Assembly: GCA_947088865.1 (NCBI GenBank)
Contig: CAMUHY010000004.1
Coordinates: 1-64,000 of the forward strand
Length of the DNA stretch: 64,000 nucleotides
Source: an uncultured Eubacterium sp.
Lineage (GTDB): Bacteria; Bacillota; Clostridia; Lachnospirales; Lachnospiraceae
Direction: 5' to 3'
Below the pieces are notes generated by a model that did not search any database, was not told where the DNA came from, and saw nothing but the letters and a program-made list of their open reading frames with translations. The number at the start of each line of letters is the position of its first letter. Within the stretch, counting starts at the first letter, position 1. A program made the position numbers and the translations under genes. Positions 101 to 20,055 of this stretch are shown here, piece by piece.

Positions 101-1279
101 TTAAGCAACTTTAAAATTTTTATTAAGTATTTGCATAATTATAGTTCGTACTAATCCTCCAAGATTGTTAATAGTACGTTCTTTTATATAATATTTATTG
201 TATACATAACTTAAGGCATATAATACATTATCAAATGAATACTGCATTGAAAGCTGTGCCAAGTCTTCAAGTTCATAGTCTTTAAATTTAAGAGGTTTAA
301 ATAAAAATTCTTCTGAATCTTCAAAAAAGTAGTTATAATTAGTATCATCGGAACTTATAATGATACTGTTTTTGTTATAAACTGTATTGTTAAAACTTTT
401 TATAAAGTCATTCAGCATATTTAAATAATTATCAAAACATTTTTGTTTTTGCAATTTGCAATTAAATGTTTGATGAATTTCAAATCGAATAGAAGTATCC
501 GTAAAACTAATATTAAAAATATCATTAAAATTTTTAACAGAATTTTTAATGATTTTAGGTTTACAGTATTCTGGCAAAGTTCTTTTAAGTTCTTTAAAGC
601 TTTTATATATAGCCGAATAATCTGTTTTAATGCTTAATGTATCAAATTCTGCTAACTGTCTTAAATGAATTCTAAGGGATACAATATTATTGATTTTGAT
701 TAAACGGGTAAATAATTCTAAAGAAATAATAATAAAACCACGTCCTCCCTTATTGGCAGGAAGGTAATAAGATTCATAATCATTAAGACACACTGAAATA
801 GTATGGGCATCTTTTTTAGAATAAGAAAGATAACCATACATTGTTAATATATCAAGATTATTAATAATAGTTTTTATATTACAATGCAAATATTGTACTA
901 AATCCTCTAAAGATAGATTGTTAATAATACCAAATTTATTAGGATTATAAAAATGCAATAATATAAATAGCTTAATTGCATTAGATTTTAATCGAGGTTT
1001 GTATCCATATTTATTTTTTTCATTATAATATACTTTTTTATAAGTATTTTGTAGAGTAGTTGTCCTATATTTGCATGTAGTACATATATTGGTAGCTGTA
1101 CTATAAACAGGTGATGTGGATGGAAAGGACTGAATAAGTGCGCATTGTTTACAATTAGAGCAATGAACATTATTATAATCTGTTATTTCTTGTGTGCTTT
1201 CTATTATTTCAGAATAATTTTTCTGAAGTCCCAATGCCTGATATAAAACAGCTTTTCCGATGTTTGTAAATAAATTCAT
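101..1279 (-). CDS. Candidate iteron-binding replication initiator or regulator
   Basis: About 392 residues. I do not recognise a named family. The N-terminus has two paired-cysteine motifs (CSNCKQC near residue 40 and CTTC near 67) that could bind zinc. Residues about 115-160 read as a winged helix-turn-helix (SLEDLVQYLHCNIKTI) and a second helical domain follows. The ATG at 1279 is preferred over an upstream in-frame GTG at 1291 because AGGTGG lies 8 bases before it. The upstream 700 bases hold an array of iteron-like repeats, the classical arrangement of an initiator gene next to its origin, so I infer a Rep-like or autoregulatory DNA-binding role. An alternative is an ordinary repressor of its own promoter. 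Confidence that it is a gene is high; function is inferred from context. Confidence 0.6.
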   Translation of the reverse strand: MNLFTNIGKAVLYQALGLQKNYSEIIESTQEITDYNNVHCSNCKQCALIQSFPSTSPVYSTATNICTTCKYRTTTLQNTYKKVYYNEKNKYGYKPRLKSNAIKLFILLHFYNPNKFGIINNLSLEDLVQYLHCNIKTIINNLDILTMYGYLSYSKKDAHTISVCLNDYESYYLPANKGGRGFIIISLELFTRLIKINNIVSLRIHLRQLAEFDTLSIKTDYSAIYKSFKELKRTLPEYCKPKIIKNSVKNFNDIFNISFTDTSIRFEIHQTFNCKLQKQKCFDNYLNMLNDFIKSFNNTVYNKNSIIISSDDTNYNYFFEDSEEFLFKPLKFKDYELEDLAQLSMQYSFDNVLYALSYVYNKYYIKERTINNLGGLVRTIIMQILNKNFKVA

Positions 1280-1342
1280 AACGTACACCACCTTTCCATT
1301 GCTATTTTAACAATTTTTGGGGTGAAAAATCAAATCGCGTTT

Positions 1343-1812
1343 TTTACTCTAAAAATATCTACATTTTTTCATTTTTTTCATTTTTTACTCTAAAAATGTC
1401 TACATTTTTAGTTATATTGATAAATATTGGCAATTTTTACTCCAAAAATGTCTACATAATTTCTTTAAAAATTTTTTTGTAGCACGAAAATTTGCATTTT
1501 GCGTTTTTTACTCCAAAAATGTCTACATTTTATTATCTCTTTTTACAAATTTATACAGAATCGGTGTAACCCTAGTATTTAAGGGGAAAATGTAGACATT
1601 AATAAATAATTTTTGAATAAAAAATGTAGAAAAACTATTCTTTTAATATTATATATATATTAATACATTCTATAATGCTGAATTTTTAAATAAAAAAGTG
1701 AAAAATTTACTCCAAAAATGTCTACATTTGAAAAATTTACTCCAAAACTATCTACATTTGATATGTAATTGAAGGAAATATTAAAAATTTACTCTAAAAA
1801 TGTCTACATTTT
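1343..1812. repeat. Iteron-like repeat array (possible replication origin)
   Basis: Seven direct copies of TTTACTCYAAAAATGTCTAC followed by ATTT begin at 1343, 1384, 1436, 1507, 1706, 1736 and 1788. Inverted partial copies occur at 1587-1600 and about 1621-1632, with a half site at 1974-1985. The core AAAATGT-CT-ACATTTT is itself a near-perfect palindrome, as expected for a site bound by a dimer. Spacing is irregular: 41, 52, 71, 199, 30 and 52 bases. Two copies differ at the same G-to-A position (1343 and 1736). The 220 bases after the last copy are very AT-rich and could serve as an unwinding region, although I see no good DnaA box there. The array fills the 750-base gap between divergent genes. 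Confidence 0.8.
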
Positions 1813-2031
1813 TTTTAAATAGAATGTTGTTAAGGAAATTTTGTATTGATGATTTAACATTTGAAAAAAATTAACAAATAATTTTGCAAATCATATGATA
1901 TATTTGTTATAAAGTGCTAAAATATTAAAAATATAGTAAAGTAAACATATTCCAAAAACGATATTGTTATGTTAAAATGTAGATATAGGAAGCGAATAGA
2001 AATACAGACAAAAAAGGAAAAGAAATAAATT

Positions 2032-2547
2032 ATGTTATTTAGAACAATTATGATTTTTCCACAATTTAATAATGAGAATATAATTAATGCAATTAGAAAG
2101 AAATATGACCCTTTATATAATTTAGTGAAACCTCATATTACGTTAGTTTTTCCCTTTCAAGATAAAATATCAAATATTGAATTAGAAAAGAAGTTAGAAG
2201 AGTGCTTCATTGAAATACCCCCTTTTAAAATAATATTACAGGGTATAAGCAGACAAAAGGACAATTATGGAAATTATATATTTTTGAATGTTAAGCAAGG
2301 TGAAAGACAAATTATAGATATTCATAATAATTTATATAGGAATATATGGAAACAAGAACAGGATGAACGATATATACCTCATATGACGCTTGGAAAGTTC
2401 CAATCAGAAGGGGAGATGATGGAGGCATACAAAGATGTAAAAGATTTAGATAGTTCTTTTGAAACATTTGTAGATAAAATCTCTGTTGAAGAAATTGGAA
2501 GGCGAGGTGAATCATTTGTTGTCATTGAAAAGCATTTATATAAATAA
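2032..2547 (+). CDS. 2H phosphoesterase (2'-5' RNA ligase / YjcG-like)
   Basis: The 171-residue protein carries two HxT motifs typical of the 2H phosphoesterase superfamily: PHITLVFPF near residue 34 and PHMTLGKF near residue 117. The length fits the small LigT/YjcG group. Members act on 2'-5' linked or cyclic phosphodiesters of RNA or nucleotides; the substrate here cannot be read from sequence. It is transcribed away from the repeat array, and a half copy of the repeat (1974-1985) lies in its leader, so its expression may respond to the same binding protein. AAAGGAAAAG stands upstream of the ATG as a ribosome site. A terminator follows at once. Tuning of second-messenger or RNA-repair chemistry are both possible roles. 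Confidence 0.8.
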   Translation: MLFRTIMIFPQFNNENIINAIRKKYDPLYNLVKPHITLVFPFQDKISNIELEKKLEECFIEIPPFKIILQGISRQKDNYGNYIFLNVKQGERQIIDIHNNLYRNIWKQEQDERYIPHMTLGKFQSEGEMMEAYKDVKDLDSSFETFVDKISVEEIGRRGESFVVIEKHLYK

Positions 2548-2600: not shown

Positions 2601-3989
2601 TTAATTATTTATAGTGATTGATTTGATATTATTAGAATTTAAGTCTTCAATTTCAGCAGGAGATAGTGGTAAAAAGTTTAAAATAAACAATCCATTCTTT
2701 AAACAAAAGCTTTTAATAGCAATTTTGTTATCTACAAATTCTTGCAGACTTTCCTGTATTAACTGCATATTTTTTTTCTTGTTTTTCATTTTAAATCGTA
2801 CTATTTTTTGAAAGTACGTATAACTATATTCGTTTGTAAGTGTTTCTTGATTTGCAATTTGTTCACGTTTTAAAGCATAACAAATGATTTTAGACAAGTT
2901 ATTCTGTAAAACATCATAAGAAGCAGAAGAGATGGATATCAATTTTTTATTGATAATGGCATTGCTTAAAACTTCACCAAATTGAGCTATCGCGTAAGGA
3001 CTTTCAGCATCTTCTTTGATTGCAATATTATCAAACAAGTTAAAATACATTTTACTTCCTTCTTCTTCATATGAAAAGTTGTATTCTACTAGTTTTCTAC
3101 AAGAATTAGAAATTTTAGCAAGTACATTTTTGCCAACATGATAATCAACGACTTCTTTACCTAATGTATTTAAATCAACAATAACTGATTTTTCTCTAGA
3201 AAATTCCTGCATATTAATATTAGAAATAAAAGAATTAATTAATTTTAAATCGTTGGAGTCCATAGATTTAGGTGGTGTTAGTTTGCCATTATTTACAGTT
3301 ACCTCTAACAGCTCATGTCCATCATCATCTGTTATGATTTCTTTTAATAAATTATTAGAAGCAGTATCCATCATTAAAGTAAAAGAAGATGGACTAAATA
3401 AAGGTTTATCTAAAAGTTGTTCAGGAAACATACGCATATAAGCATCAATATTGCCAGCAAGGTCTGTTTCAATATATTTCCAAGCGCTGATAATTAAGTC
3501 ATTTTTTAATGAGTTATAGATTGATTTATTTGTAAAACTTGAAAGACCTGGAAATGTTATTAATAAACTGTTAGGGTTATCTTTCCAATCATTAACTTTT
3601 TTTCGGTAATCTTCAATAATGTCATTAGTGTCCATTGTCCCAAACATTGTGGTATATTGGTCAATTGGCAAAGAACGAGCAACTTTAAAGATATTGGCAA
3701 GAGGGTGTTTAGAATCATCAATATTTAGTGTATTAATATCAGTTATATAAGACTTGTACCATCTTGCTCTTTTTTGTAATCTTGATTTTTTAATTTTGCT
3801 GACGATAGGTATTAAATCTTCACGGCTTGTTTTTCCTTCTAAGTAAGTCATAAGCGTTTCATCAATCAATTCTACGATAGAAGAGCAGGGAAAACTAAGA
3901 ATGTTATTTTTCATATTGAAAAAGTCAATAATAGCAGGGTCTATATTTTTTGATAATTCTTCTATAAATTGTCTTGAATATTGTTCCAT
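2601..3989 (-). CDS. Unknown protein, possible initiator-like C-terminal fold
   Basis: About 462 residues; I do not recognise the family. An in-frame TTG at 4061 would give 486 residues, but ATG 3989 has AGAAAGG twelve bases upstream and is preferred. There are no membrane segments or signal peptide. The C-terminal 120 residues (from about NKKLISISSASY to NFLPLSPAE) have the alternating helix and lysine-rich pattern seen in winged-helix plasmid initiators, including a stretch KNKKKNMQLIQESLQEF. That resemblance is my impression, not a match. It sits between the iteron region and a recombinase, which makes a plasmid maintenance or replication role plausible. A phage-type or structural protein is equally possible. 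Confidence 0.5.
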   Translation of the reverse strand: MEQYSRQFIEELSKNIDPAIIDFFNMKNNILSFPCSSIVELIDETLMTYLEGKTSREDLIPIVSKIKKSRLQKRARWYKSYITDINTLNIDDSKHPLANIFKVARSLPIDQYTTMFGTMDTNDIIEDYRKKVNDWKDNPNSLLITFPGLSSFTNKSIYNSLKNDLIISAWKYIETDLAGNIDAYMRMFPEQLLDKPLFSPSSFTLMMDTASNNLLKEIITDDDGHELLEVTVNNGKLTPPKSMDSNDLKLINSFISNINMQEFSREKSVIVDLNTLGKEVVDYHVGKNVLAKISNSCRKLVEYNFSYEEEGSKMYFNLFDNIAIKEDAESPYAIAQFGEVLSNAIINKKLISISSASYDVLQNNLSKIICYALKREQIANQETLTNEYSYTYFQKIVRFKMKNKKKNMQLIQESLQEFVDNKIAIKSFCLKNGLFILNFLPLSPAEIEDLNSNNIKSITINN

Positions 3990-4221: not shown

Positions 4222-5169
4222 ATGACAGATGAATTTTTGTATTCTATTTGGACATTTTTTGAAGCAAACCTTTCCAAACGAACAAGAAAAAACTATTTTC
4301 AAGTTGTAAAAAATTATGTAAATGTTACCAATATTTCACCAGAAAATCTAACGAATGAAGCTGCTTTAAAATATTTTAATTATTTAACCAATAAAGTTAA
4401 AAATAATGAATTATCTTATAATACAGCAGCAATGCGCTTATCCGTTATGCGAAAATTATGCGATTATATTAAATATAAAAAAGATTTGGAAAAAGAACCC
4501 TATATTAATTATTTTAAAGAATATGCTATACCTGAAAAAGATAAAACATTAAAAGAAGAGGATATTCCAACAGATAAGGAGTTAGACAATTTGCTTTTAC
4601 TAGCAAGCGAAGTTAATGACAGTCTATTTTATATCGTATTATCCTTAGTAATCAAATGTGGATTGCGAACCAGTGAAATTTGTCAGCTTACAAACAAATC
4701 CATATATCTTGATAAAGACAATACCATTTGTTTAAAGATTGATAAACAAAAAAAAGTAGGAAGATTAATCAAACTGCCAAAGGATGTAGATTTTTTATTT
4801 AAAAATTATTTGCAAATTCATAATATAAAACAATATAGTGATTTACAGCCGGATGATGTGCAGTATATATTTATGAATAAACGAAATACCAATTTAAAAG
4901 TACGCGATGCAGAGCGTCTATTAAAAAAATATATAAGAAAAGGCGTTGATGATAAACGAATTTCAAAAGAATATACATTACAAGATATCAGGCATTCTGC
5001 AATAAAATATATGTTATTAGGCGGAGCTGGACAAGATTCTGTCGCAGATTATTGCGGAATTACTGAAAGATGGATGACACGGTATAATAGAGTTGTCAAT
5101 GAATCAAGCAGTCTTCTTGCTGCAGATTTAAGCGTTATTACCATTAAACCATCCTCCTTTTTACCATAA
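4222..5169 (+). CDS. Tyrosine recombinase / integrase (XerD-like)
   Basis: The 315-residue protein has an N-terminal SAM-like core-binding domain (about residues 5-100) and a C-terminal catalytic domain. The catalytic Arg I lies in CGLRTSEICQL (R149), a lysine-containing beta hairpin follows near 176, Arg II and the following His are in LQDIRHS (R257, H258), and the nucleophile is Y288 in WMTRYNRV. The first residue of the HxxR box is glutamine (Q254), and the usual LGH before the tyrosine reads YCG, so the active site departs from consensus. The family cuts and rejoins DNA for integration or dimer resolution. Its position at the junction between repeat-bearing DNA and housekeeping genes suggests an element-borne enzyme. 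A strong promoter and AGGAGG precede it. Confidence 0.85.
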   Translation: MTDEFLYSIWTFFEANLSKRTRKNYFQVVKNYVNVTNISPENLTNEAALKYFNYLTNKVKNNELSYNTAAMRLSVMRKLCDYIKYKKDLEKEPYINYFKEYAIPEKDKTLKEEDIPTDKELDNLLLLASEVNDSLFYIVLSLVIKCGLRTSEICQLTNKSIYLDKDNTICLKIDKQKKVGRLIKLPKDVDFLFKNYLQIHNIKQYSDLQPDDVQYIFMNKRNTNLKVRDAERLLKKYIRKGVDDKRISKEYTLQDIRHSAIKYMLLGGAGQDSVADYCGITERWMTRYNRVVNESSSLLAADLSVITIKPSSFLP

Positions 5170-7971: not shown

Positions 7972-8781
7972 TTAAACCTTTAAAATATCTACTATATGTG
8001 CGCCTGCCCCCAATAAATCCGGTCGTTCACATACAGATAATTGATATTGAATAAACAAATTAAATTCGTCTTCGGACATTTTATTTAAAAATGGTCTTAT
8101 ATAATTAGCTGGTCCATCGGGTGATAAAATCTTATATCGTTTTAATCCACATATATTATTATATTCATTAATGTCTTCCACTCTAACATAATCATATAAA
8201 TCGGAAGGTGAATTATGTGTATGAAAGTCTGATGAAATTTTATTATCGTTCCATGCTTCTATTATATGTCTTTCCTTAAAACCATACGTAATTATGCTAT
8301 ATTCATTCATCACATAAGCTACTAGAATATAGCCCCCAGACTTCGTAATTCGTTTTGCTTCGCGTAATGCCTGAACCTTATCTTCTATATTAAATAAATG
8401 ATACATTGGACCAAACAATAAGGTTATATCAAAAGCCTCATTATCAAATCGTTTTAATTTTAAGGCATTTCCTTGATACGCTTTTACAGTACTATTTTTA
8501 GCTTTTAACAGTCCAAGATTATGCTTTACCAGTTCAACTGCGGTCACATCATACCCTTCGTCTGCAAGAGCAATTGAATATCTCCCTGTTCCAGCGCCAA
8601 TATCCATTATTTTAATTTCATTATTGGTTATAATACAATTTTTATCACTTTTACACAAATTAATACACTCATGTATATATTTCATTGAAATATCAAATTC
8701 AACTTTGCCATGTCTTGAATCTAAGCGTTTTTCTTCATTGAATTTATTATAATATTTTTCTAAATCGGACATTGATGCCAT
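7972..8781 (-). CDS. Class I SAM-dependent methyltransferase
   Basis: About 269 residues. Motif I is IMDIGAGTGRYSIALAD near residue 58, followed by the acidic motif II VTAVELV and motif IV-like ITLLFGPMYHLF near 120. These place it in the class I Rossmann methyltransferases. The FGPMYHL motif is shared with a group of small-molecule or unassigned methyltransferases. The substrate cannot be told. ATG 8781 is chosen because GGGGA stands six bases upstream; ATG 8793 and 8772 are alternatives. The leader is formed by repeat element E. The gene is downstream of the histidine kinase on the same strand but separated from it by the palindrome. Confidence 0.85.
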   Translation of the reverse strand: MASMSDLEKYYNKFNEEKRLDSRHGKVEFDISMKYIHECINLCKSDKNCIITNNEIKIMDIGAGTGRYSIALADEGYDVTAVELVKHNLGLLKAKNSTVKAYQGNALKLKRFDNEAFDITLLFGPMYHLFNIEDKVQALREAKRITKSGGYILVAYVMNEYSIITYGFKERHIIEAWNDNKISSDFHTHNSPSDLYDYVRVEDINEYNNICGLKRYKILSPDGPANYIRPFLNKMSEDEFNLFIQYQLSVCERPDLLGAGAHIVDILKV

Positions 8782-8864
8782 ATTAATCCCCATTCTTACT
8801 CAACCTGCACGTTTGTTTGGGCATAAGCACAAACTTGCGTGTAAAAAATTTATTTTTCACACGA
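8782..8864 (-). repeat. Repeat element E, copy 1
   Basis: Read on the minus strand, this 83-base segment starts with the palindrome GTGTGAAAAAT-AA-ATTTTTTACAC and ends in a Shine-Dalgarno (GGGGATTAAT) just before the methyltransferase ATG. The same layout recurs at 31286-31383 before the Hsp90-like gene: matching palindrome, a TTTGTG segment, a TATGC segment, and a final AATGRGGATTA. The copy here lacks about 20 internal bases. Confidence 0.65.
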
Positions 8865-10934
8865 TTACTCCAAAACAATCTTTTTTATCGTTTCGAGAAC
8901 AATTTTTACATCAATTGGTTTAGCAATGTGTGCATCCATTCCTACCTCAAACGATTTTTTCTTATCTTCTTCAAACGCATTGGCTGTCATGGCAATAATT
9001 GGTATACGGCGTATTGTATTATCAGGAAGCATACGAATTGCCCTAGCTGCTTCTAATCCATTCATAACAGGCATCTGTATATCCATTAAAATCACTTTAT
9101 AATAATTTGGCGTTACATTTTGCATAATTTGAACAGCCTCTTTGCCATTTAACGCAGTTTCTACAATAAGTCCTGCATCTGTTAATATTTCTGTCGCAAT
9201 TTCACGATTCAATTCATTGTCTTCCACTAAAAGAATCCTCATATCTTTTAATAAATCACTATCTTTATTGTCATTATTTACAAAAGCATCTTCTTTCATA
9301 ATCGATATATGAGGCTCACATAATCGAAATTCAATATCAACAATAAATTCACTGCCAATTCCTTCTTGGCTTCTAACAGAAATGGTGCCACCCATCATTT
9401 CCACAAGACTTTTTACAATAGCAAGACCAAGACCTGTGCCTTGAATACCGCTAATTGTTGAATTGTTTTGTCTCTCAAATGGTTCAAAAATATGGTTTAA
9501 AAAATTTTTACTAATCCCAATTCCTGAGTCTTTTATTACAAATATATATCTTCTATGTGTATTTGCGGTTCCTTCTTTTTCTTCAACTTTTAATGTGACT
9601 GTTCCATATTGATTCGTATATTTAACCGCATTGGACAATAAATTAAGCAATATTTGACTAACCTTTAATTTATCACAATAAACCATACGATTTTGAATGT
9701 TGGATATATCCATATTAAATCGTTGATTTTTTTCCAAAGTTTGATTTTGAATAATGCTGCCTGTATTTTCAATAATTGATACAATATCATTTTGAGATGC
9801 CTCTATATGTGTTTTTCCGCTTTCTATACGCGACATATCCAAAACATTATTAATTAAATTGAGCAAATGCCCGCTTGAATCTAGTATTTTCATCAAATGG
9901 TCTCTGACAAGGTCAATATTATCCATATGTTTCACTGCTAAATTGGCAAACCCAATAATCGCATTCATTGGTGTACGAATATCATGTGACATATTTGATA
10001 AAAATTTGCTTTTTGCAGAATTAGCAGTCTCTGCAAGTACAAGAGCATCTTCTAATTTCTTTTTTTGCTCCATCTCTCTTTTAACTTCTTCATCTACACT
10101 CTTAAAACCAATAACTACCTGCGATGGCCAAATGGTATTGCCCACTTTTACAACCTTCATCTGCCAAAATTCAAAATAATTATCCTGTACCATTCTAAAA
10201 TTAACATAAAAGGAATCTTGTGTTTCAATCAAAGACCTTATATAATCATTTTGACAAACTTGTTGAATCAATGGCTTGTCCTGAATATAGACATTTTCAA
10301 CCATATATTTTTGTACAACGGATGCAAAATTATCATTATGGTCAATATCAATATTGCCATGATTAAATTCCGTAGAAACTCTATAAGGATATACGGTCTC
10401 TTTGTCTAAATCGACAAAAAATACAGACTTAAAATCTTCACTTAAGCCCTGTATCATCTCTGACTGCCTTGTATAGTCTTCCTCTCTAATCTTATCTTTC
10501 GTTATATTTTTATCAATAGCAAGAGCATGAATATCTCCTGTACTTTCATCTTTAAATAAAATATAAGTCGTTCGCACATAACTTTTCTTTCCATCAAATC
10601 CATCAGCCCAATATTCCACATAAGGAAAAAAATCGCCCTCATAATACTTATTTAGCAAGTAATCAGGATTGCTTTTTTCTATAAAAAGTTTATTATTGCT
10701 AATTATTTTTTGAGCGCTGCAACGTCTTATAAATTCTCTAAAACTACAAGGTGCTGACAATCCAACAGTTTCTAACAAATCAATTTCTTTATTTTTAAAA
10801 AATTGACTTGCTATACCTGTCATAAGGTCTTTTGATACATTGATTTCATATACTGCCATTGACGTCGCCATTACAATATTTTTGTATAATGAATTTCTTT
10901 GTATCATATCATATTCGTTTGCTTTACTGTTCAT
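8865..10934 (-). CDS. Hybrid sensor histidine kinase / response regulator
   Basis: About 689 residues with no membrane segment, so probably cytoplasmic. Residues about 20-290 look like two PAS-type sensor domains. The HisKA domain has the phospho-acceptor His in NMSHDIRTPMN (near 317). The ATPase domain has the N box LLSNAVKYT, G1 DSGIGIS and G2 GTGLGLAI. The C-terminal receiver (about 565-685) begins ILLVEDNE and has the acceptor Asp in LMDIQMPVMNG. This layout is common in Lachnospiraceae. ATG 10934 lies 6 bases after GGAGAT. No separate output regulator is adjacent, so the pathway partner is unknown. It starts 17 bases after the DUF5662 gene and may share its transcript. Confidence 0.92.
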   Translation of the reverse strand: MNSKANEYDMIQRNSLYKNIVMATSMAVYEINVSKDLMTGIASQFFKNKEIDLLETVGLSAPCSFREFIRRCSAQKIISNNKLFIEKSNPDYLLNKYYEGDFFPYVEYWADGFDGKKSYVRTTYILFKDESTGDIHALAIDKNITKDKIREEDYTRQSEMIQGLSEDFKSVFFVDLDKETVYPYRVSTEFNHGNIDIDHNDNFASVVQKYMVENVYIQDKPLIQQVCQNDYIRSLIETQDSFYVNFRMVQDNYFEFWQMKVVKVGNTIWPSQVVIGFKSVDEEVKREMEQKKKLEDALVLAETANSAKSKFLSNMSHDIRTPMNAIIGFANLAVKHMDNIDLVRDHLMKILDSSGHLLNLINNVLDMSRIESGKTHIEASQNDIVSIIENTGSIIQNQTLEKNQRFNMDISNIQNRMVYCDKLKVSQILLNLLSNAVKYTNQYGTVTLKVEEKEGTANTHRRYIFVIKDSGIGISKNFLNHIFEPFERQNNSTISGIQGTGLGLAIVKSLVEMMGGTISVRSQEGIGSEFIVDIEFRLCEPHISIMKEDAFVNNDNKDSDLLKDMRILLVEDNELNREIATEILTDAGLIVETALNGKEAVQIMQNVTPNYYKVILMDIQMPVMNGLEAARAIRMLPDNTIRRIPIIAMTANAFEEDKKKSFEVGMDAHIAKPIDVKIVLETIKKIVLE

Positions 10935-10951
10935 GTCCAAATCTCCTTTTG

Positions 10952-11512
10952 TCAGAATACACGACGTTTTATTACTTTCTTTCGTATATATGCAAATGTA
11001 TATTCTTCTCCTTTTTCTGAAAGCATTTTTAACAATTTAAACAATAAAGCTTCTGTTTTAGGATGAATTACATAATGACTTTTACCTTTAAGGAAGTAAT
11101 CAAGTGCATCGGAATCCTTGTATTTTTCTTTATTATAATTTTTACTGGCAGCAACTCTATCACAGAACATTTCAACCACGTATTTTATTGGCATTTCCAT
11201 ACCGACCAGCCCTTCAGACTTATTGGTAGGATAATCAATCCAATATTCGTAATGATGCTTATTGCGCCCTTTATGATGAAGCCATGCCCCTGAACAGCCT
11301 TCTGCCTCACGTTGGGCATTGTTAGGACTTCTATCTCCTTGATAATATATAACACCTGGTATAAACTCACTTAAAGAATATTTAGATAAATCATGCAACA
11401 ATCCTTGCCTATATAATCCAACACGAAAACAATATTTCATAACTAACATTTTATGTGCATTAATTGTTTTTAAATGACCTTTAAAATTACGAAAAAATTT
11501 GCTTATATTCAT
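10952..11512 (-). CDS. DUF5662 family protein
   Basis: About 186 residues matching DUF5662 as I remember it: LLHDLSKYSLSEF near residue 40, YYQGDRSPNNAQRE near 60, WLHHKGRNKHHYEYW near 78 and a DRVAASKNY helix. The HD and HHxxxxxxHH histidines suggest a metal-binding hydrolase-like fold, but no activity is established to my knowledge. The start at 11512 has AAGAGGG 8 bases upstream; a longer frame begins at 11539 without a better site. It lies just upstream of the histidine kinase gene on the same strand (17-base gap). Confidence 0.8.
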   Translation of the reverse strand: MNISKFFRNFKGHLKTINAHKMLVMKYCFRVGLYRQGLLHDLSKYSLSEFIPGVIYYQGDRSPNNAQREAEGCSGAWLHHKGRNKHHYEYWIDYPTNKSEGLVGMEMPIKYVVEMFCDRVAASKNYNKEKYKDSDALDYFLKGKSHYVIHPKTEALLFKLLKMLSEKGEEYTFAYIRKKVIKRRVF

Positions 11513-11608
11513 TGATTTTCCCTCTTGAAATAATATCAATACAGCGCGTGATTATTATACCATAACTATATCCTATAAATCTATATGAAATGATATATTT
11601 TTATTGAC

Positions 11609-12796
11609 TCACTGTACATTCTCTTTGTTCTCTTTATTATTATATTTTTTATCATATATATTATTAATATATGTTCTAAAAAATGTATAGGCAATTGAAA
11701 AAATAGGTATAAATACTAACATTCCTATTACACCAAACAAATTGCCACCCAATGTAAGTGCTACTAATGTCCATAAACCTGGCAATCCCACAGAATTTCC
11801 AACAACGTGAGGATAAATTAAATTGCCCTCTATCTGCTGTAAGACAAGAAAAAGTACAAGAAACGCAACAGCCTTTAATGGGCTAACCAATGCAATAAGC
11901 AGCATCCCAATAATGAGTCCTATAAACGCACCTACAATAGGAATTAAAGCTGTAATAGCTATGGTAACACCAATTAATAAAGCATACGGCATACCACATA
12001 TAGACATACACACAACAAACAATAGTCCTAATATACAAGCCTCTAAACACTGACCCGACAAAAAGCTTGAAAAGGTTGAGTCAATAATACCAACACAATT
12101 TAAAAAACGCTGTATTTTATCTTTTTTAAACATAGCATATAAAACTTTTGTGATTTGTTTTCCAAGTCGTTCCTTTTGTATAAGGATATAAATAGAAAAT
12201 ACAAAACCGATTATAAATACTGTAAATCCTGAAATAATACTTGTTATTGCTCCAAATCCGCCCGAAATAAAAACTCCTACTGTGCCATCTGAAACAAACG
12301 TCATCACTTTTGATATAATCATATCCCAGTTAATATTAATATTTCCAATAAAAGAACTAAGCTGTGGAACAGAATGAAGCTTCTCCATAATAAATTGCTG
12401 TGCATGTGCAACTTGTTCTGGAAGAACTTTAATAAGCTCTGTTATTGTATTTGCAAGCTGTGGAATAACAACAATCATAGCAAAACTAATAACAACAATT
12501 ATTAACAATAATGTAATAAAAATGGACATTCCTCTTATTAAATAAAATATTTTATTGGAAAGCGGCTTTTCTTTATTTTTGCGAAGTTTTAACAATATTT
12601 TTTCTACTTTTCTCATTGGCACATTAATAATAAATGCAATGACTCCACCCACAATAAATGGTAAAATAACCGATATTATCCAATTAAAGGCAAGATATAA
12701 CGTTCCTATATTGTTTAATGCCCAATATACAAACAATAAAATTACGCCAATTGTAACACCTCGCCTTATATGGTCATCTTTAATTAATTTTTTCAT
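11609..12796 (-). CDS. AI-2E family transporter (PerM/YtvI-like)
   Basis: About 395 residues with roughly eight hydrophobic segments, arranged as two or three near the N-terminus, an amphipathic middle region and a dense C-terminal block. The conserved tail motif is recognisable: QQIEGNLIYPHVVGNSVGLP near 330, followed by GGxLxGxxGMLxxIP. The family is an inner-membrane exporter group whose cargo varies (autoinducer 2, sodium, or unknown). ATG 12796 has GGAGG at ideal spacing; an ATG 29 codons upstream lacks a ribosome site. It is monocistronic, divergent from the GltD-like gene. Confidence 0.88.
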   Translation of the reverse strand: MKKLIKDDHIRRGVTIGVILLFVYWALNNIGTLYLAFNWIISVILPFIVGGVIAFIINVPMRKVEKILLKLRKNKEKPLSNKIFYLIRGMSIFITLLLIIVVISFAMIVVIPQLANTITELIKVLPEQVAHAQQFIMEKLHSVPQLSSFIGNININWDMIISKVMTFVSDGTVGVFISGGFGAITSIISGFTVFIIGFVFSIYILIQKERLGKQITKVLYAMFKKDKIQRFLNCVGIIDSTFSSFLSGQCLEACILGLLFVVCMSICGMPYALLIGVTIAITALIPIVGAFIGLIIGMLLIALVSPLKAVAFLVLFLVLQQIEGNLIYPHVVGNSVGLPGLWTLVALTLGGNLFGVIGMLVFIPIFSIAYTFFRTYINNIYDKKYNNKENKENVQ

Positions 12797-12919
12797 ACCA
12801 ATCCTCCATTCATCCCCTAATCTTTCCCATGATTTTACCATTAATATACCTATAAAGTCTAGTAATTTAGTACACTTTGTCATTGTATTTCATTCATAAA
12901 TAATGTTATAATATTAAAA

Positions 12920-13060
12920 AGTCAAATATCGCACAATAAATTGCAATGCGTCCAAAGGGCGCTATGATATTTGACCTTTGCGGCAATGCTAAATGGACAG
13001 GCAAACATACCACTGACATATCCGCTTGGCTCGTTGCTCGCAAGAATAAAATTAAAAAGG
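12920..13060 (+). repeat. Repeat element B/C, copy 1
   Basis: The B half (12920-12974) is a palindrome with the outer stem GTCAAATATC / GATATTTGAC around an inner GCGTCC-AAA-GGGCGC. The C half (to about 13055) contains GGCAAACATACCACTGACAT and CGCTTGGCTCGTTGCTCGC. The same B+C order is at 57560-57691; B alone at 19944-20034; C alone at 23526-23580 and, decayed, at 46847-46895. It fills the leader of the GltD-like gene and ends just before its GGGGG ribosome site. Confidence 0.75.
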
Positions 13061-13076
13061 GGGAACTAGTAATAAT

Positions 13077-14309
13077 ATGGCTCTACATGTAATGGACGAG
13101 GCAAATCGATGCCTGCAATGCAAGGTACCACAATGTCAAAAGGGATGCCCAATTAACACAAATATTCCAAAAGCTATTAAATTACTAAAAGAAAATAAAT
13201 TAAATGAAGCTGGAAAGATGCTTTTTGAGAATAATCCACTCACAACGGTATGCAGTCTTGTATGTAATCATGAAAAACAGTGCGAGGGACACTGCGTACT
13301 TGGTAAAAAAGGCGCTCCTGTACATTTTTCAACCATTGAAAATTATATATCTTCTACATTTGCAGACCAAATGACAAATGGTCCTGCACCTTCCAACGGT
13401 ATGCGTGTTGCAATTATTGGCTCTGGTCCTGCTGGTATAACAATTGCAATTATTCTTGCACGATATGGATATCAAGTAACAATATTTGAAGGAAAAGATA
13501 AAATAGGCGGAGTGCTTCGCTATGGTATCCCAGAATTTAGATTGCCAAAAAATGTCCTTGATGATATTGAATACAGACATTTGCGATTAAAAGGCATCAA
13601 GATACGTCCAAATACATTAATTGGCGGCGCTATTGGCATTGAAGACTTGTTCAGAGACGGCTATAAAGCAATATTTGTAGGCACAGGTGTATGGAAACCA
13701 AACTCATTACACATTAAAGGGGAAACATTTGGACATGTTCATTTTGGTATACACTACCTCAATAATCCAGACAGTTATCATCTTGGACAAAATGTTGTTG
13801 TAATTGGTGCGGGCAATGCCGCTATGGATGTTGCCCGAACAGCGATGCGCAAAGGCTCTACCAACATTACCTGCTTTTCTATCACAAAAGAAGTTGCTGC
13901 CAGTCATTATGAATTTAGTTATGCACAGCTTGAAGGCGTCCAATTTGAATACAACAAGCGTCCTATCGAAATAACAGACGAAGGTGTTATCTTTTGTGAT
14001 GTTGTTGAAAATGAAGATGGTTCTTTTACAGATGTTGAAGGCTCTAATAAATTATTTAAGGCAGACAGCGTTATTATTTCTATCAGTCAAGGTCCTCAAA
14101 ACAGACTTGTAAATAATACAGAAGGATTAAAAGCCAACGAGCGTGGACTTCTTGATGCTGATGAGACAGGACATACCTCAAGACCAGGCATCTTTGCTTC
14201 AGGCGATGTTATTTATGGAGCAAAAACCGTTGTTGAAGCCGTTGCTCACAGCAAAATCGTTGCTGAATCTATGCATCAATATATGCAAAGCCTTCCAAAA
14301 GAAGATTAA
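13077..14309 (+). CDS. Glutamate synthase small subunit-like NAD(P) oxidoreductase
   Basis: 410 residues. The N-terminal Fe-S domain has the cysteine pattern CLQCKVPQCQKGCPI and CSLVCNHEKQCEGHC. An FAD site follows, VAIIGSGPAGI near residue 110, and an NAD(P) site, VVVIGAGNAAMDVA near 243. The C-terminal GIFASGDV closes the FAD domain. This is the GltD/SudA-like architecture; the partner may be glutamate synthase large subunit, but no gltB is nearby, so a stand-alone NADPH-linked electron-transfer role (as in NfnB-like proteins) is possible. It is somewhat shorter than typical GltD (about 450-490). GGGGGA lies upstream of the ATG, directly after a B/C repeat. Confidence 0.88.
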   Translation: MALHVMDEANRCLQCKVPQCQKGCPINTNIPKAIKLLKENKLNEAGKMLFENNPLTTVCSLVCNHEKQCEGHCVLGKKGAPVHFSTIENYISSTFADQMTNGPAPSNGMRVAIIGSGPAGITIAIILARYGYQVTIFEGKDKIGGVLRYGIPEFRLPKNVLDDIEYRHLRLKGIKIRPNTLIGGAIGIEDLFRDGYKAIFVGTGVWKPNSLHIKGETFGHVHFGIHYLNNPDSYHLGQNVVVIGAGNAAMDVARTAMRKGSTNITCFSITKEVAASHYEFSYAQLEGVQFEYNKRPIEITDEGVIFCDVVENEDGSFTDVEGSNKLFKADSVIISISQGPQNRLVNNTEGLKANERGLLDADETGHTSRPGIFASGDVIYGAKTVVEAVAHSKIVAESMHQYMQSLPKED

Positions 14310-14344
14310 GATATTTTAAATATCTTTATTAAAATCTAACATCA

Positions 14345-14386
14345 TCAACGAAGTAGTGTAGCGGATTATGAATATCCGCTTAACTG
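14345..14386 (-). repeat. Repeat family A, short form
   Basis: Read on the minus strand it gives AAGCGGATATTCATAATCCG, then CTACACTACTT and GTTGATGATG. This is the left hairpin of family A joined directly to the right end, like the copy at 55933-55981. Confidence 0.7.
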
Positions 14387-14402
14387 CCTATCAAATAACA
14401 TA

Positions 14403-14448
14403 GGGACTGTCGCAAAATAGAACTTAAAATTCTTTTTGTGACAGTCCC
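14403..14448. terminator. Bidirectional terminator
   Basis: GGGACTGTCGCAAAA pairs with TTTTGTGACAGTCCC around a 16-base loop, between convergent genes. Confidence 0.8.
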
Positions 14449-14464
14449 ATATTTACTTGCAAAT

Positions 14465-14965
14465 TTATTTATAACCTTCCATTTGTGTTGCAATAGATTT
14501 TAACTCTGATTGGGTAAATTTAAAATACTTCCGCCCTGTTTCCTGTTTTGCGCCTAATCTTTCATAAAATTCAATTGATGATTTATTCCAGTCAAGACAA
14601 CTCCACTCCATTTCTGTATATCCATCTGCAAGTACAATTTCAGCTATTTTAGCAAGAAAAAGTCTGCCTATACCATAGCCGCGAAAATTCGGCTGGATAA
14701 AAATATCTTCTAAATGTATTTTTCCTATGGCAGAAAATGAACCAAAAATAGGATAATAAAGCGCATATCCTACAACCTCTTTTTCATATTCGGCAATCAA
14801 GACTGTGGCAACTTTTCTTTCAAAAAGCCAATACCTCAATTGTTTCTCTGTTCCTGTCATATCCTGTGGCCTTTTTTCATAGGATGCTAAACATTTTATC
14901 AGATATTGTATTTGTGGTATATCCTCTACATGCGATTTACGAATAATTAGGTGCTTTATATTCAC
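14465..14965 (-). CDS. GNAT N-acetyltransferase (diamine/SSAT-like)
   Basis: About 166 residues from a GTG at 14965 preceded by GGGAG with 9 bases spacing; an ATG at 15022 gives a longer frame with no ribosome site. The acetyl-CoA loop is FRGYGIGRLFLAKIAE near residue 100, preceded by LEDIFIQP and followed by MEWSCLDWNKSSIEFYERLGA, which is the pattern of the spermidine/spermine acetyltransferase-like subgroup. It would transfer acetyl from acetyl-CoA to an amine. The substrate is not established. It is on the same strand as metY but about 95 bases downstream. Confidence 0.85.
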   Translation of the reverse strand: MNIKHLIIRKSHVEDIPQIQYLIKCLASYEKRPQDMTGTEKQLRYWLFERKVATVLIAEYEKEVVGYALYYPIFGSFSAIGKIHLEDIFIQPNFRGYGIGRLFLAKIAEIVLADGYTEMEWSCLDWNKSSIEFYERLGAKQETGRKYFKFTQSELKSIATQMEGYK

Positions 14966-15064
14966 TCTGTTTTTCTCCCTTTGTAAACTATACTTTATCA
15001 AAACGGATATTGACAATCCCACATACGGTTTCCTTTATAATGTTAAAATTGCTTATAACCCTTT

Positions 15065-16369
15065 TTATAAAGATTTAAATGCCTCTTCTAAATCTTCAAT
15101 AATATCATCAATATTTTCAATACCGATAGAAAGTCTGATTGTGTTCTGTTTAATACCTTGTTCTACCAATTCATCAGCATTTAATTCAGAATGTGTTGTA
15201 GAAGCTGGATGAATTACAAGAGACTTTGCATCCGCAACATTTGCAAGAAGTGAAAATAATTCAAGATTATCAATAAATTTTTTAGCCGTATTTTCATCCC
15301 CTTTTATTTCAAATGTAAAAATAGAGCCTCCCCCTTTTGGAAAATATTTTTTATAAAGGCTCTGTTGACTCAAATCATCGGATACAGATGGATGATTTAC
15401 TTTTTCAACAAGAGGATGCTTTGATAAATAATCCACAACTTTAAGAGCATTTTCAACATGACGTTCTACTCGCAACGATAATGTTTCAAGCCCCTGCAAA
15501 AATATCCAACTATGTATTGGTGACAATGTTGCACCTGTATCTCTAAGGAGAATAGCTCGTATTCGTGTCACAAAAGCTGCCGCTCCCGCTGCTTCGGTAA
15601 AACTAACGCCATGATAACTTTCATTTGGCTGTGTTAATTGAGGAAACTTTCCAGAAGCTTTCCAATCAAATTTACCGCTATCTACAATAACGCCGCCAAT
15701 CGTTGTGCCATGTCCACCAATAAATTTTGTAGCTGAATGTATAACAATATCTGCTCCATATTCGATTGGTTTTACAAGATATGGCGTTGCAAATGTATTG
15801 TCAATAACAAGCGGTATATGATGTGCATGTGCAATTTTTGCAATAGCTTCAATATCAACAACTTCTGAATTTGGATTGCCAAGCGTCTCAATATATAAAG
15901 CTTTTGTATTATCTTGAATTGCTTTTTCAAAATTTTCAATATCAAAAGGGTCTACAAACGTTGTTGTCACACCATAGTCAACAATTGTATGCGCAAGATA
16001 ATTATAGGTTCCTCCATATATATTTTTTGCCGCAACAATATGTTCGCCTGCAACTGCAAGATTTTGAATGGTGTAAGATACTGCGGCAGCTCCAGAAGCA
16101 ACCGCCAAAGCAGCTACCCCGCCCTCAAGCGCTGCAATTCTTTGTTCAAATATATCTTGTGTGGGATTTGTAAGTCTTCCATAAATATTGCCTGCATCCT
16201 TTAATGCAAATCGGTCTTGTGCATGTTGTGCATTGTGAAACACAAATGAAGATGTCTGATAAATTGGAACAGCTCTTGCATCGGTTACAGAATCTGCATA
16301 TTCTTGTCCTACATGCAATTGTAATGTCTCAAATTTAAAATCTCTGTCCTTATATGTTTTTTTTGCCAT
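15065..16369 (-). CDS. metY: O-acetylhomoserine aminocarboxypropyltransferase (sulfhydrylase)
   Basis: About 434 residues. The family hallmarks are present: LQLHVGQEYADSVTDARAVP at the start, the PLP-binding lysine in SATKFIGGHGTTIGG near residue 212, and the Cys/Met metabolism PLP-enzyme signature. It makes homocysteine from O-acetylhomoserine and sulfide, in the cytoplasm, in the methionine/sulfur pathway. ATG 16369 follows AAGGA by 6 bases. A good sigma-A promoter lies 137 bases upstream. No SAM riboswitch is visible in the leader. CysE at the window's other end and the Rrf2 regulator at 22 kb belong to the same sulfur theme. Confidence 0.93.
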   Translation of the reverse strand: MAKKTYKDRDFKFETLQLHVGQEYADSVTDARAVPIYQTSSFVFHNAQHAQDRFALKDAGNIYGRLTNPTQDIFEQRIAALEGGVAALAVASGAAAVSYTIQNLAVAGEHIVAAKNIYGGTYNYLAHTIVDYGVTTTFVDPFDIENFEKAIQDNTKALYIETLGNPNSEVVDIEAIAKIAHAHHIPLVIDNTFATPYLVKPIEYGADIVIHSATKFIGGHGTTIGGVIVDSGKFDWKASGKFPQLTQPNESYHGVSFTEAAGAAAFVTRIRAILLRDTGATLSPIHSWIFLQGLETLSLRVERHVENALKVVDYLSKHPLVEKVNHPSVSDDLSQQSLYKKYFPKGGGSIFTFEIKGDENTAKKFIDNLELFSLLANVADAKSLVIHPASTTHSELNADELVEQGIKQNTIRLSIGIENIDDIIEDLEEAFKSL

Positions 16370-16505
16370 AATCATTCCTTCTTTCTTTAATATCCATTTT
16401 ATATAGATTACTATACAATATAAATGCGTTACAAACAACTCTCACAAATTTATAAAGCAAGCAATCATTATCTTATAAATGTAATGGTATATTGTAATTT
16501 TCTAT

Positions 16506-16534
16506 AAAATACCACTTTATTCATATTATGTCAA
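16506..16534 (-). promoter_or_regulatory. Sigma-A promoter of metY
   Basis: On the minus strand TTGACA (16534-16529) and TATTTT (16511-16506) are 17 bases apart. AATAATTCATATAATTCC just upstream of the -35 box is an imperfect inverted repeat that could be an operator, for example for a CymR-like Rrf2 protein; that link is a guess. Confidence 0.55.
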
Positions 16535-16564
16535 TAGGAATTATATGAATTATTGGTAAATTTT

Positions 16565-16628
16565 ACAGTTTAGCCATTATAATGATATATTTTTATTATA
16601 TATCGTTATATTACAATGACTAAACTGT
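16565..16628. other. Long imperfect hairpin between metY and the coiled-coil gene
   Basis: ACAGTTTAG (16565-16573) pairs with CTAAACTGT (16620-16628), with further inner pairing of ATTATAATGATATA-type sequence. There is no T-run, so it may be a processing or rho-independent-like end of the upstream minus-strand gene. Confidence 0.5.
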
Positions 16629-16655
16629 TCTCAACACAACATATCACAATAGATA

Positions 16656-17660
16656 TTAAACATTTTGGTCAACGGCTGCGCCTTTTAAATCTTCTTGACT
16701 TAATTGCAACTCTGCAACAATAAGGTCTAATGATTTTTTCATATCATTAGAGCTGTTTCGATTATTATTTTTAGAAAGCTCCAAAATATCTTGTTTCAAT
16801 TCATAAATTTTTTCTAGCTTTTCTTCATCTTCCTTACTTTGTTCTTTTGACTTTTCTATTCTATCTTCAATAATCTCTTCTTCTTTTGCCTTATCCTCTG
16901 CCTTTTGTTTTTCATCTTCATACTTATCATCAATATCTTTTTTAGCCTCATCAATAATGGTTCCCATAACCTCTTTATTAGCAGCTTTAATAACCTCATC
17001 GCCCTGCTTTTTTGCATCGACCATCTCATGATATTTTAAACGTTCCAATGCAATTCCTCTTGCCGTTCCATATTCTTTACGTATATTTTCTTTATTTTCG
17101 TCAATTTTTTCGTTTAATTCAAATTTTTCCTCATCAAGCTTTAACATCTTCTCTTGATATTCCGTAAGACTTTTGTTCTTTATTTTTGCCAGTTCAGCAT
17201 TCTCTTCTGGCGTAAGCTTAACTTCATCTGGATGACGGATGCTCTCTCTTTCCTTGATAAGCAAATCTAAATCCTTTTGTTCTTTGCTATCGCTATCCAC
17301 ATTATGTATTTCTTTTAAATTTTCTTCTTCATCTTGAATGTCCGATAAAAGCATAGAATATTCTTCATTTTCCTTTTTATGTATCTCGGCTCTTTCATTA
17401 CATTGCTCAATTTCCCTATCAATGTCATTATCACGCTTAAACGCATTTCCCATCAATTCCATTGCTATCTTTTGCGCCTTTTTCTTTTTTTCTTCAATGC
17501 TTTCATTCCCAAGATTTAGCTGGCTGCCATCAATCGTCATTCCTGAATTGGTAGAAGTTGCACTTTTATCATTTTTTGAATTTTTTTCTTTTACCTCGCT
17601 ATTTTTAGTTAAGTCCATATTATTTACTGAATTTATATCCGAATATCCGTTAACTTTCAT
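16656..17660 (-). CDS. Coiled-coil protein of unknown function
   Basis: 334 residues, very rich in Glu, Lys, Asp and Asn. Long heptad-like stretches run from about residue 55 to 310, and the first 50 residues are low-complexity polar. There are no cysteines forming motifs, no signal peptide and no membrane segment. The composition points to an extended helical cytoplasmic protein. I do not recognise the family; similar Asn/Lys-rich coiled coils occur as uncharacterised proteins in Lachnospiraceae. ATG 17660 is preceded by an AGAGGG ribosome site. It is transcribed alone, divergent from the HD-domain gene. Confidence 0.75.
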   Translation of the reverse strand: MKVNGYSDINSVNNMDLTKNSEVKEKNSKNDKSATSTNSGMTIDGSQLNLGNESIEEKKKKAQKIAMELMGNAFKRDNDIDREIEQCNERAEIHKKENEEYSMLLSDIQDEEENLKEIHNVDSDSKEQKDLDLLIKERESIRHPDEVKLTPEENAELAKIKNKSLTEYQEKMLKLDEEKFELNEKIDENKENIRKEYGTARGIALERLKYHEMVDAKKQGDEVIKAANKEVMGTIIDEAKKDIDDKYEDEKQKAEDKAKEEEIIEDRIEKSKEQSKEDEEKLEKIYELKQDILELSKNNNRNSSNDMKKSLDLIVAELQLSQEDLKGAAVDQNV

Positions 17661-17850
17661 AATAAAACCCTCTTTTCTATATTATTTTTAATAAATTAAT
17701 CCACATCAAACAACTTATAAATATTATTTATTATTTCGACATAATAAATAAAAATATTAACTATTACTTGTGTAAAAATTCGGCTTGTGATACCATAAAC
17801 AATACAAATTTCTTATCACAAACTTATAATAAAATAAACAGGAGGAATCC

Positions 17851-18462
17851 ATGAAAGAAAATAAAGAATTTACTGATTTAGAAAAAATATTTCAATTTTG
17901 TTTAGAAATTGATAAAGAAAAAATGATAAAAAGACAAACTTATCTCTCGGATGGCAGTATAAAAGAAAATGATGCAGAACATGCTTGGCATATGGCAATC
18001 ATGGCTGTACTACTGTCTGGTTATGCCAATGAAAAAATTGATGTATTAAAAACTATAACCATGTTATTAATACATGATATTGTTGAGATTGATGCAGGTG
18101 ATACATACGCATATGACCCTGAAGCCAAAAAAACACAAAAGGAACGCGAATTAAAAGCGGCTGACAGGATATATTCCATCCTGCCAAAAGAACAAGGCGA
18201 TTACTTAAGAAGTTTATGGAATGAATTTGAAGAATGCAAAACGCCTGAAGCCCAGTTTGCAAGAACATTAGATAATATACAACCTACTATGCTAAATCAT
18301 GCCACCCACGGAAAAAGCTGGCTGGAAAAAAAGGTAAAGCTTTCTCAAATATTAGATAGAAACCAAAACACAGCTAAAGGCTCAGAGACTCTATGGGATT
18401 ATTCTTATAATCATTTTATTAAACCTAATGTAGATAAAGGTAATATTATTAATGACATATAA
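17851..18462 (+). CDS. HD-domain hydrolase (YfbR/HDDC2-like)
   Basis: 203 residues. The HD motif is complete: the first His in AEHAWHMA near residue 42, HD in LLIHDIVEIDAGDT near 75 and the last Asp in ARTLDNIQP near 141. The spacing and the EIDAGDT tail match the YfbR/HDDC2 group, which dephosphorylates 5'-deoxynucleotides. A role in nucleotide pool balance is therefore likely. GGAGG lies before the ATG. A terminator follows 30 bases downstream. There is no operon partner. Confidence 0.88.
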   Translation: MKENKEFTDLEKIFQFCLEIDKEKMIKRQTYLSDGSIKENDAEHAWHMAIMAVLLSGYANEKIDVLKTITMLLIHDIVEIDAGDTYAYDPEAKKTQKERELKAADRIYSILPKEQGDYLRSLWNEFEECKTPEAQFARTLDNIQPTMLNHATHGKSWLEKKVKLSQILDRNQNTAKGSETLWDYSYNHFIKPNVDKGNIINDI

Positions 18463-18494
18463 TATATTATTTTATTAAATGAAAGGACTGTATC

Positions 18495-18526
18495 AAAAGA
18501 TAATTTACTTTTTAGATTATCTTTAT
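18495..18526 (+). terminator. Intrinsic terminator after the HD-domain gene
   Basis: AAAGATAAT pairs with ATTATCTTT around an 11-base T-rich loop. Confidence 0.6.
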
Positions 18527-18603
18527 ATAAGTCAGATAGGCTTCAATTGCCAAAACATTGATTATTATAACTTTGACTTATCATTCACGGAAAGTAAAAC
18601 ATT

Positions 18604-19929: not shown

Positions 19930-19943
19930 AGATACTACAAGTC

Positions 19944-20034: not shown

Positions 20035-20055
20035 ATAAAATTTTATATAATTGTT

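Follow-up and report, generated by a model that had tools for sequence, protein, structure and literature searches.

The seven direct repeats near the left end of the stretch of DNA analysed here, the first 64,000 nucleotides of contig CAMUHY010000004.1 from an uncultured Eubacterium sp. (hereafter the window), probably mark the origin from which a secondary, chromid-like replicon of Lachnospira is replicated, and the candidate initiator is the product of a nearby gene that we call P1. We propose that P1 would bind the seven repeats, or iterons, and open the DNA or load the replisome there much as the initiator of an iteron plasmid does, and that P2, a second winged-helix protein, would assist or regulate, perhaps by way of inverted half sites, although this role of P2 is a guess. 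The module would represent an unnamed initiator family found on large Bacillota plasmids and on Clostridioides difficile phage-plasmids. In the sampled Bacilli its origin seems to fire bidirectionally, and in Lachnospira, most clearly in L. eligens, one leftward fork (in window coordinates) would copy nearly the whole circle. More broadly, we find it fairly likely that the P1 family drives Bacillota megaplasmids and chromids of up to 1.4 Mb, in both directions in Bacilli and one-way in Lachnospira, where a core-gene-bearing replicon of about 0.6 Mb that carries the sole glutamyl-tRNA synthetase gene would be copied mainly by a single fork from an origin near the terminus.

The window is the start of contig C4 (155,081 bp) in a draft genome of 3.29 Mb and 48 contigs. 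We take the source genus to be Lachnospira; the locus titles in the Lachnospira set read L. multipara, L. pectinoschiza, Lactobacillus rogosae, uncultured Lachnospira, uncultured Eubacterium and Eubacteriales. The corresponding locus of L. eligens sits on a circular record of 626,744 bp (NC_012780.1, [Eubacterium] eligens ATCC 27750), which is presumably the plasmid pEubeli2. The elements on which the argument turns are the following.

101..1279, minus strand: P2, companion protein of 392 residues with an N-terminal CxxC...CxxC, two winged helices and a helical C-terminus (alignment, model, homologues)
1343..1811, plus strand: iteron array, seven 24-bp copies in two clusters (repeat counts, shuffles, position comparison)
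1583..1599, minus strand: box B, a lone inverted half site ATGTCTACATTTT... between the iteron clusters (position comparison in the genus)
1974..1986, minus strand: second inverted half site (13-mer, 1 mismatch)
2601..3989, minus strand: P1, proposed initiator of 462 residues with ATG at 3989 (homology, array pairing, model)

The iteron array and the inverted boxes

The repeat unit TTTACTCYAAAAATRTCTACATTT is 24 bp long and occurs seven times, always in the same orientation (1343-1366, 1384-1407, 1436-1459, 1507-1530, 1706-1729, 1736-1759 and 1788-1811), with one copy carrying AACTATC and one ending in AA. A 22-base form of it, allowing up to four mismatches, has seven matches in 1280-2031 and none elsewhere in the window, and with a maximum of 0 matches in 200 dinucleotide shuffles of the region the direct repeats reported in a preliminary description of this DNA are real and above chance. 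A blind count of 20-mers likewise reached 8 in the region against a shuffle maximum of 6 (none of 60 shuffles reached 8). The 16-base core, with at most one mismatch, has five sites in the whole 3.29-Mb genome, all of them within 1352-1812, and since a reversed-pattern control gives four genome sites, the genome-wide number is unremarkable and it is the clustering that counts. The array has a GC fraction of 0.21.

Measured to the start of P2, the iterons of the window lie at 508, 456 and 426 bp in one cluster and at 227, 156, 104 and 63 bp in the other. The distances are close to these in L. eligens (484, 440, 410 and 209, 137, 96 bp) and at locus L079 (483, 439, 409 and 208, 137, 96, 54 bp), and depart somewhat from them in the L. 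multipara-pectinoschiza group (494, 451, 421 and 149, 118, 66 bp); the spacing is similar even though the P2 proteins of all three are only 43-54% identical to that of the window. Across 67 repeats from 12 loci the iterons are most strongly conserved in two blocks that form an asymmetric pair, GTAGA.A and GAGTAAA. The palindromic core, which had been described for the repeats, was rejected as a conserved element: in the window four of the seven copies have it exact, whereas at 11 other Lachnospira loci only 2 of 60 do.

The inverted half sites that had also been described do exist, at 1583-1599 and 1974-1986. Box B recurs, with at most four mismatches and 242-303 bp upstream of P2, at every Lachnospira locus where P2 and the gap share a contig (13 of 13), and a 17-base inverted box lies 687-733 bp from P2 in 10 of 13, the window having no match at that length. 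With two classes of site at similar positions across the genus, and with P2 present in 14 of the 22 genus genomes, it is possible, if somewhat doubtful, that P1 and P2 are co-initiators, one acting on the direct repeats and the other on the inverted boxes, and that both are needed in Lachnospira. Outside Lachnospira, however, the array seems to work without P2, and box B contains the ATGTCTAC block of the iteron, so that one protein might bind both. DnaA boxes were considered as a general feature of these loci and dropped, being scattered and absent from 10 of the 18 loci scanned. Rfam gave no match at its gathering score, and no tRNA was found.

The P1 and P2 proteins

The listed open reading frame (ORF) of P1 has 486 residues and begins upstream of the ATG, at a TTG. 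P1 is 73-83% identical to its counterparts at other Lachnospira loci and is present in 16 of 22 Lachnospira genomes, including all 13 with completeness of 90% or more and contamination of 5% or less. Among 398 genomes drawn evenly from the phylum only one other than the window's own gave a match, short and weak (E 3e-4); we suppose that Bacilli fall outside this GTDB phylum. Searches with tblastn placed P1 on 21 plasmid records with the window protein as query and on 34 with a Paenibacillus query, the plasmids reaching 1.44 Mb in Niallia and 1.08 Mb in Priestia, and among the matches listed the gene is annotated as a hypothetical protein in most plasmid records. Furthermore, a P1 relative (hidden Markov model (HMM) E 2.7e-33) adjoins an array in phage phiCDIF1296T, a locus that was located via P2 and not via P1.

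No match above cut-off was found for P1 in Pfam or NCBIfam, and the earlier statement that no named Rep family could be recognised therefore stands for these two collections. Rep_3 (PF01051) had no match in 17 P1 members, nor in the genomes of the window and L. eligens, RepA_N (PF06970) was absent from the matches listed for P1 and from the best 25 of 28 for P2, and sequence searches of the PDB gave nothing better than E 0.17. The P1 model, with a predicted local distance difference test (pLDDT) score of 58.5, has a helical region of about 180 residues at the N-terminus. Its five best Foldseek hits are all Rep initiators, namely pPS10 RepA WH1 (first, with prob 1.00 and E 0.028), two chains of MSBI1.176 WH1, RctB and RepE, a likeness that we regard as a lead and not as proof. 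Against viral folds the model gave nothing at E 0.001, the eleventh hit being an 'initiation of plasmid replication' protein with prob 0.57.

P2 had been described as a winged-helix protein with zinc-type cysteines. The winged helices appear to hold, since the model (mean pLDDT 79.6) contains two of them as read from its secondary structure. The four CxxC-type cysteines are kept without exception by all 15 sequences in one alignment (12 from Lachnospira and 3 from C. difficile phages) but are absent in some relatives from Bacilli, such as Virgibacillus and Exiguobacterium. Profile searches with P2 gave only sub-threshold helix-turn-helix matches and no Rep family, the match to HTH_36 being below cut-off (E 0.0037, 17.5 of 25 bits), and the 50 best Foldseek hits of its model are mostly generic winged-helix regulators, with no Rep initiator among them. 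Homologues of P2 were found in 14 of the 61 relatives searched (own genome included), all within the genus, and further in 16 plasmid records and 4 C. difficile phage records. P2 also matches phrog_13905, a phage family of unassigned function, over nearly its full length (E 1.2e-14), but is here assigned to a replication module that also comprises a P1 relative and an array. Scans of viral contigs with A2 and with the Paenibacillus P2, and of genome contigs with P2, gave nothing useful. At the Paenibacillus doosanensis locus (L088, 12309-13862) the place of P2 is taken by a protein of 517 residues without a P2 match or an above-cut-off family.

Association of the arrays with P1 and P2

The notion that the region is an iteron origin is strengthened by the search for repeats beside homologues in other genomes, in which arrays adjoin P1 in 20 of 20 loci examined, in two of these past one inserted gene. 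The scan covered fixed 800-bp stretches beside P1 at the window, L. eligens and 18 other loci, with 12 shuffles each. Arrays of 6-23 copies were found directly at P1 in 18 of the 20 loci, 16 downstream and 2 upstream of the gene, against a shuffle maximum of 5, and in the window and Terribacillus the array lies past one gene from P1 (0 of 60 shuffles each). The sequence of the repeat varies between genera. On the Priestia megaterium plasmid pFDU301A (L105, 5522-6227 onward) at least 23 repeats with a spacing of about 32 bp stand beside P1.

The preliminary description took P2, whose start is only 63 bp from the nearest iteron, to be the protein that binds the array. That P2 is the initiator and P1 an accessory is an arrangement that its position directly beside the array, the two winged helices of its fairly confident model and its presence at 10 of the 18 loci outside Lachnospira that have P1 would allow, but we consider it unlikely. 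An HMM scan of 19 loci outside Lachnospira found P1 in 18, P2 in 11 and both in 10; 13 of these loci were fetched because of P1, and its lead is therefore partly by design, and it should also be mentioned that 4 P1 and 6 P2 proteins were already in the models. P2 was not seen in the fetched stretch of 8 of the 18 P1 loci, and in a fairer test, on eight whole records, five gave no P2 match at E 0.001, and these five carry P1 and arrays. Conversely, the C. difficile plasmid pCd5_2 (L023, 5983-7182) encodes a P2 relative with no P1 in the 13 kb fetched and no array of at least three copies in the parts scanned, so that P2 may have another role. Homologues lacking the repeats, which had been named as grounds for giving up the origin, have thus been met with for P2 alone and have not been seen for the P1-iteron module. 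The absence of Rep initiators from the 50 best Foldseek hits of P2 likewise counts against it.

The iterons furthermore track P1 better than P2. In Mantel tests the likeness of iterons correlates with the likeness of P1 with r 0.68 over 21 loci and r 0.56 over 18 less redundant ones (both p 0.0002), and over the 13 loci with both proteins r is 0.77 for P1 and 0.62 for P2. The closest pairs of iterons across hosts include Virgibacillus-Niallia, P. thiaminolyticus-P. doosanensis-Brevibacillus and Aneurinibacillus-Rossellomorea, and each of these groupings includes a partner without P2. Since the iterons follow P1, also in close pairs with a P2-less partner, we infer that P1 is probably the iteron-binding initiator, by a modest margin over P2.

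Chromid-like character of the replicon

26047..27711, minus strand: gltX (NCBIfam gltX_bact above cut-off; sole full-length copy in the genome)

The lack of a core gene from the chromosome is a criterion for chromids, and gltX, encoding glutamyl-tRNA synthetase, is such a gene here. One full-length copy is found in each genome, on C4 in that of the window and on the 627-kb replicon in L. eligens, and the other gltX matches, on C11 and C1, are partial and 26-30% identical. mnmA is likewise full-length only on C4 in the genome of the window and on the 627-kb replicon in L. eligens, where the match contains one in-frame TGA that we take to precede the true start. Of the C4 ORFs of at least 150 residues (n=121), 19 have their best match on the L. 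eligens replicon, 2 on its chromosome, 400 kb of the 2,144 kb of which was sampled, and 100 on neither at the thresholds used. ParA and ParB genes adjoin the origin in L. eligens. The preliminary description had offered an integrated element, a chromid or a contig end as alternatives; the replicon appears to be chromid-like and the window does start at the end of C4, but an integrated plasmid or its relic is disfavoured, the L. eligens locus being on a circular record.

GC skew and direction of the fork

8001..64000, no strand: right-hand arm with negative skew and genes mostly on the minus strand (each 2-kb bin from 8 kb; to 155 kb at 10-kb resolution)

All three Bacilli megaplasmids sampled have a sign change of the GC skew no more than about 15 kb from P1. 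The complete P. thiaminolyticus plasmid (359,554 bp) has its cumulative skew minimum at 172,898 and P1 at 184,310. In the Aneurinibacillus plasmid (721 kb; 20 stretches of 20 kb) the sign flips where two bins join at 308 kb, the minimum in the surrounding 40 kb is at 322,878 and P1 is at 307.8-309.2 kb, and in the Niallia plasmid (1.44 Mb; 20 stretches) it flips between 950 and 960 kb, 950-955 kb being unsampled, with P1 at 951.6-952.9 kb. The sampled Bacilli plasmids with P1 thus look bidirectional. L. eligens has a local skew minimum at 299,609, about 5 kb from the array. An exact coincidence of skew minimum and iterons was rejected, and because the minima are about 5-14 kb away we claim only that they are near.

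The L. eligens replicon as a whole behaves differently from these plasmids. Its skew sums to -43,845 over 626,744 bp, with negative values in 30 of the 32 stretches (each up to 20 kb long) and positive ones at 300-340 kb, and 10-kb steps over the 300 kb round the origin add one more positive bin (+0.06), about 100 kb to the left. Of its ORFs of at least 120 residues, 428 are on the minus strand and 99 on the plus strand. The L. eligens chromosome, sampled in 20 pieces of 20 kb, has 10 positive and 10 negative. With one polarity nearly all round the circle and a balanced chromosome, we infer that the circle is replicated nearly unidirectionally.

Elsewhere in the genus the pattern is similar in part. 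In the genome of the window the skew is negative in all 29 of the 5-kb bins that span +5 to +150 kb relative to the array. In genome G015 the skew is negative for 85 kb leftward (+0.03 in the bin next to the array) and for 50 kb rightward, and in G016 and G006 it is negative on the left and negative again from +10 kb. All 10 contigs that extend more than 10 kb to the left are negative there from the -10 kb bin onwards, apart from the one L. eligens bin. The block gltX-NUDIX-thiE-mnmA-metY (metY being our short name for a match to O-acetylhomoserine/O-acetylserine (OAH/OAS) sulfhydrylase) is on the minus strand at 15-27.7 kb (15065-27711) in the window and on the plus strand, in reversed order, at 309-328 kb in L. 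eligens, so that gene strand and local skew sign differ together between the two. Since the block is inverted, the positive stretch of L. eligens may be an inversion and not a second arm, and in either case one fork would copy more than 90% of the circle.

A number of observations nonetheless weigh against the proposal as a whole. The genome of the window is a draft with the left arm off the contig, the circular record is that of L. eligens, and the genome of the window yields only a weak ParB match (E 0.001). The P1 model is poor, and none of its Foldseek matches passes E 0.001. The likeness of P1 is confounded with host kinship in the Mantel tests, and over the 10 less redundant loci with both proteins r falls to 0.33 for P1 (p 0.026) and 0.19 for P2 (p 0.11), a margin that means P2 may bind too. 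The skew minima, as said, are near the locus and not on it. Furthermore, G003, G001 and G008 stay positive to +15 to +45 kb on the right, the right arm of G019 is mixed, and those of G014 and G004 are near zero, so that two-way copying may apply to these six genomes. Of the 11 Lachnospira contigs that reach at least 10 kb into the right arm, 5 (L. eligens included) have a skew there that stays positive or mixed for 15-45 kb or as far as the contig runs, and strict unidirectionality may therefore not hold throughout the genus.

This variation of right-arm skew among species, together with the inverted gltX-metY block, from which it follows that inversions near the origin occur, could be taken to mean that the uniform skew of L. 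eligens stems from large inversions or from a gene-orientation bias of other cause and not from one-way replication. Such an origin of the skew seems improbable in view of the single polarity over nearly all of a complete 627-kb circle, the single polarity both left and right of the origin within individual contigs of G015, G016 and G006, and the even split of the L. eligens chromosome. It might also be argued that the array is only an operator or a partition (parS-like) site and that the true origin is elsewhere on the replicon, since direct repeats also serve partition in some plasmids and the ParA and ParB genes are close by in L. eligens. We hold this to be very improbable, as the skew switches near the P1-array locus, as no RepA_N or Rep_3 match was found in L. 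eligens, these being the Rep families searched genome-wide, and as a ParA gene is listed in only 3 of 14 annotated Bacilli plasmid stretches, the tables of which are incomplete. The reading of the array as an origin served by P1 is accordingly the one we retain.

Neighbouring genes

2032..2547, plus strand: 2'-5' RNA ligase-like gene between P1 and the array (Pfam 2_5_RNA_ligase2, E 4.3e-23)
4222..5169, plus strand: tyrosine recombinase (Xer-like), next to P1 on the opposite strand (profile matches)

At the thresholds used the L. eligens replicon shows no equivalent of the RNA ligase-like gene, which is probably an insertion outside the replicon core. The tyrosine recombinase stands beside P1 in 13 of 14 Lachnospira loci (the exception being L078), and it is possible that it resolves dimers at a terminus adjoining the origin. 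Further along, 42815-62730 encodes a series of uncharacterised proteins, partly acidic, which may be an immunity-gene cluster. A RepA_N domain is encoded on another contig of the same genome (C6:19634-19858), and the strain may for that reason hold a further plasmid.

Comparison with known replicons and implications

Iteron theta plasmids of the RepA/RepE type carry direct repeats of about 20-24 bp beside the gene for a winged-helix initiator, and an array of direct repeats beside the initiator gene is also what is found here, with one gene between them in the window. P1 resembles the initiators of this group (pPS10, F; Pfam Rep_3) in that pPS10 RepA WH1 and RepE are its first and fifth Foldseek hits, but it has no Rep_3 match, it has the long N-terminal helical region, and its module often has a second winged-helix gene beyond the array. 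RepA_N initiators of Gram-positive plasmids are similar in host range, and one P1 relative (WP_289237070.1) is labelled 'replication initiator protein A'. RepA_N origins lie within the rep gene.

Vibrio chromosome 2 replicates bidirectionally. Its RctB/ori2 system is comparable in that RctB is the initiator of a secondary chromosome and the fourth Foldseek hit of P1 (prob 0.54), but P1 had no sequence match in the PDB search. One report describes a crtS checkpoint for that chromosome (PMC11711613). The chromids of Pseudoalteromonas (RepA/ori2) offer a parallel for the direction of copying, as a study of these replicons presents sequencing-coverage evidence for one-way copying, a terminus near the origin and the existence of bidirectional relatives, and says that significant matches of their RepA were lacking beyond the genus (PMC7858055). 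They belong to another phylum, and the P1 family, unlike that RepA, also occurs on Bacilli plasmids that look bidirectional. The same study gives a GC-skew survey of 16,103 large replicons with 77 predicted to be unidirectional, Firmicutes included, among which the L. eligens replicon may already be (PMC7858055). Single slopes for a few replicons, including A. ampelinum Chr2, are given in another paper (PMC13342612). Neither the P1/P2 family nor the copying direction of the L. eligens replicon is named in the titles and abstract openings among the matches listed, which lie outside subscription papers.

Iteron replication as such is well known, and what seems to be new here is an unnamed initiator family, its frequent winged-helix partner and one genus that has seemingly turned one-way. 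Megaplasmids of the Paenibacillus, Priestia and Niallia type, C. difficile phage-plasmids and the second replicon of gut Lachnospira all gain a candidate initiator and origin in this family, and the P1-iteron module could be tried as the origin of a Lachnospira vector. If the one-way origin is true, the P1 family would offer a convenient system in which to compare origins and ask why some become one-way. If one-way copying were confirmed, Lachnospira would be the Firmicutes counterpart of the Pseudoalteromonas chromids, and since relatives with the same initiator family look bidirectional, the evolution of fork direction would become directly testable.

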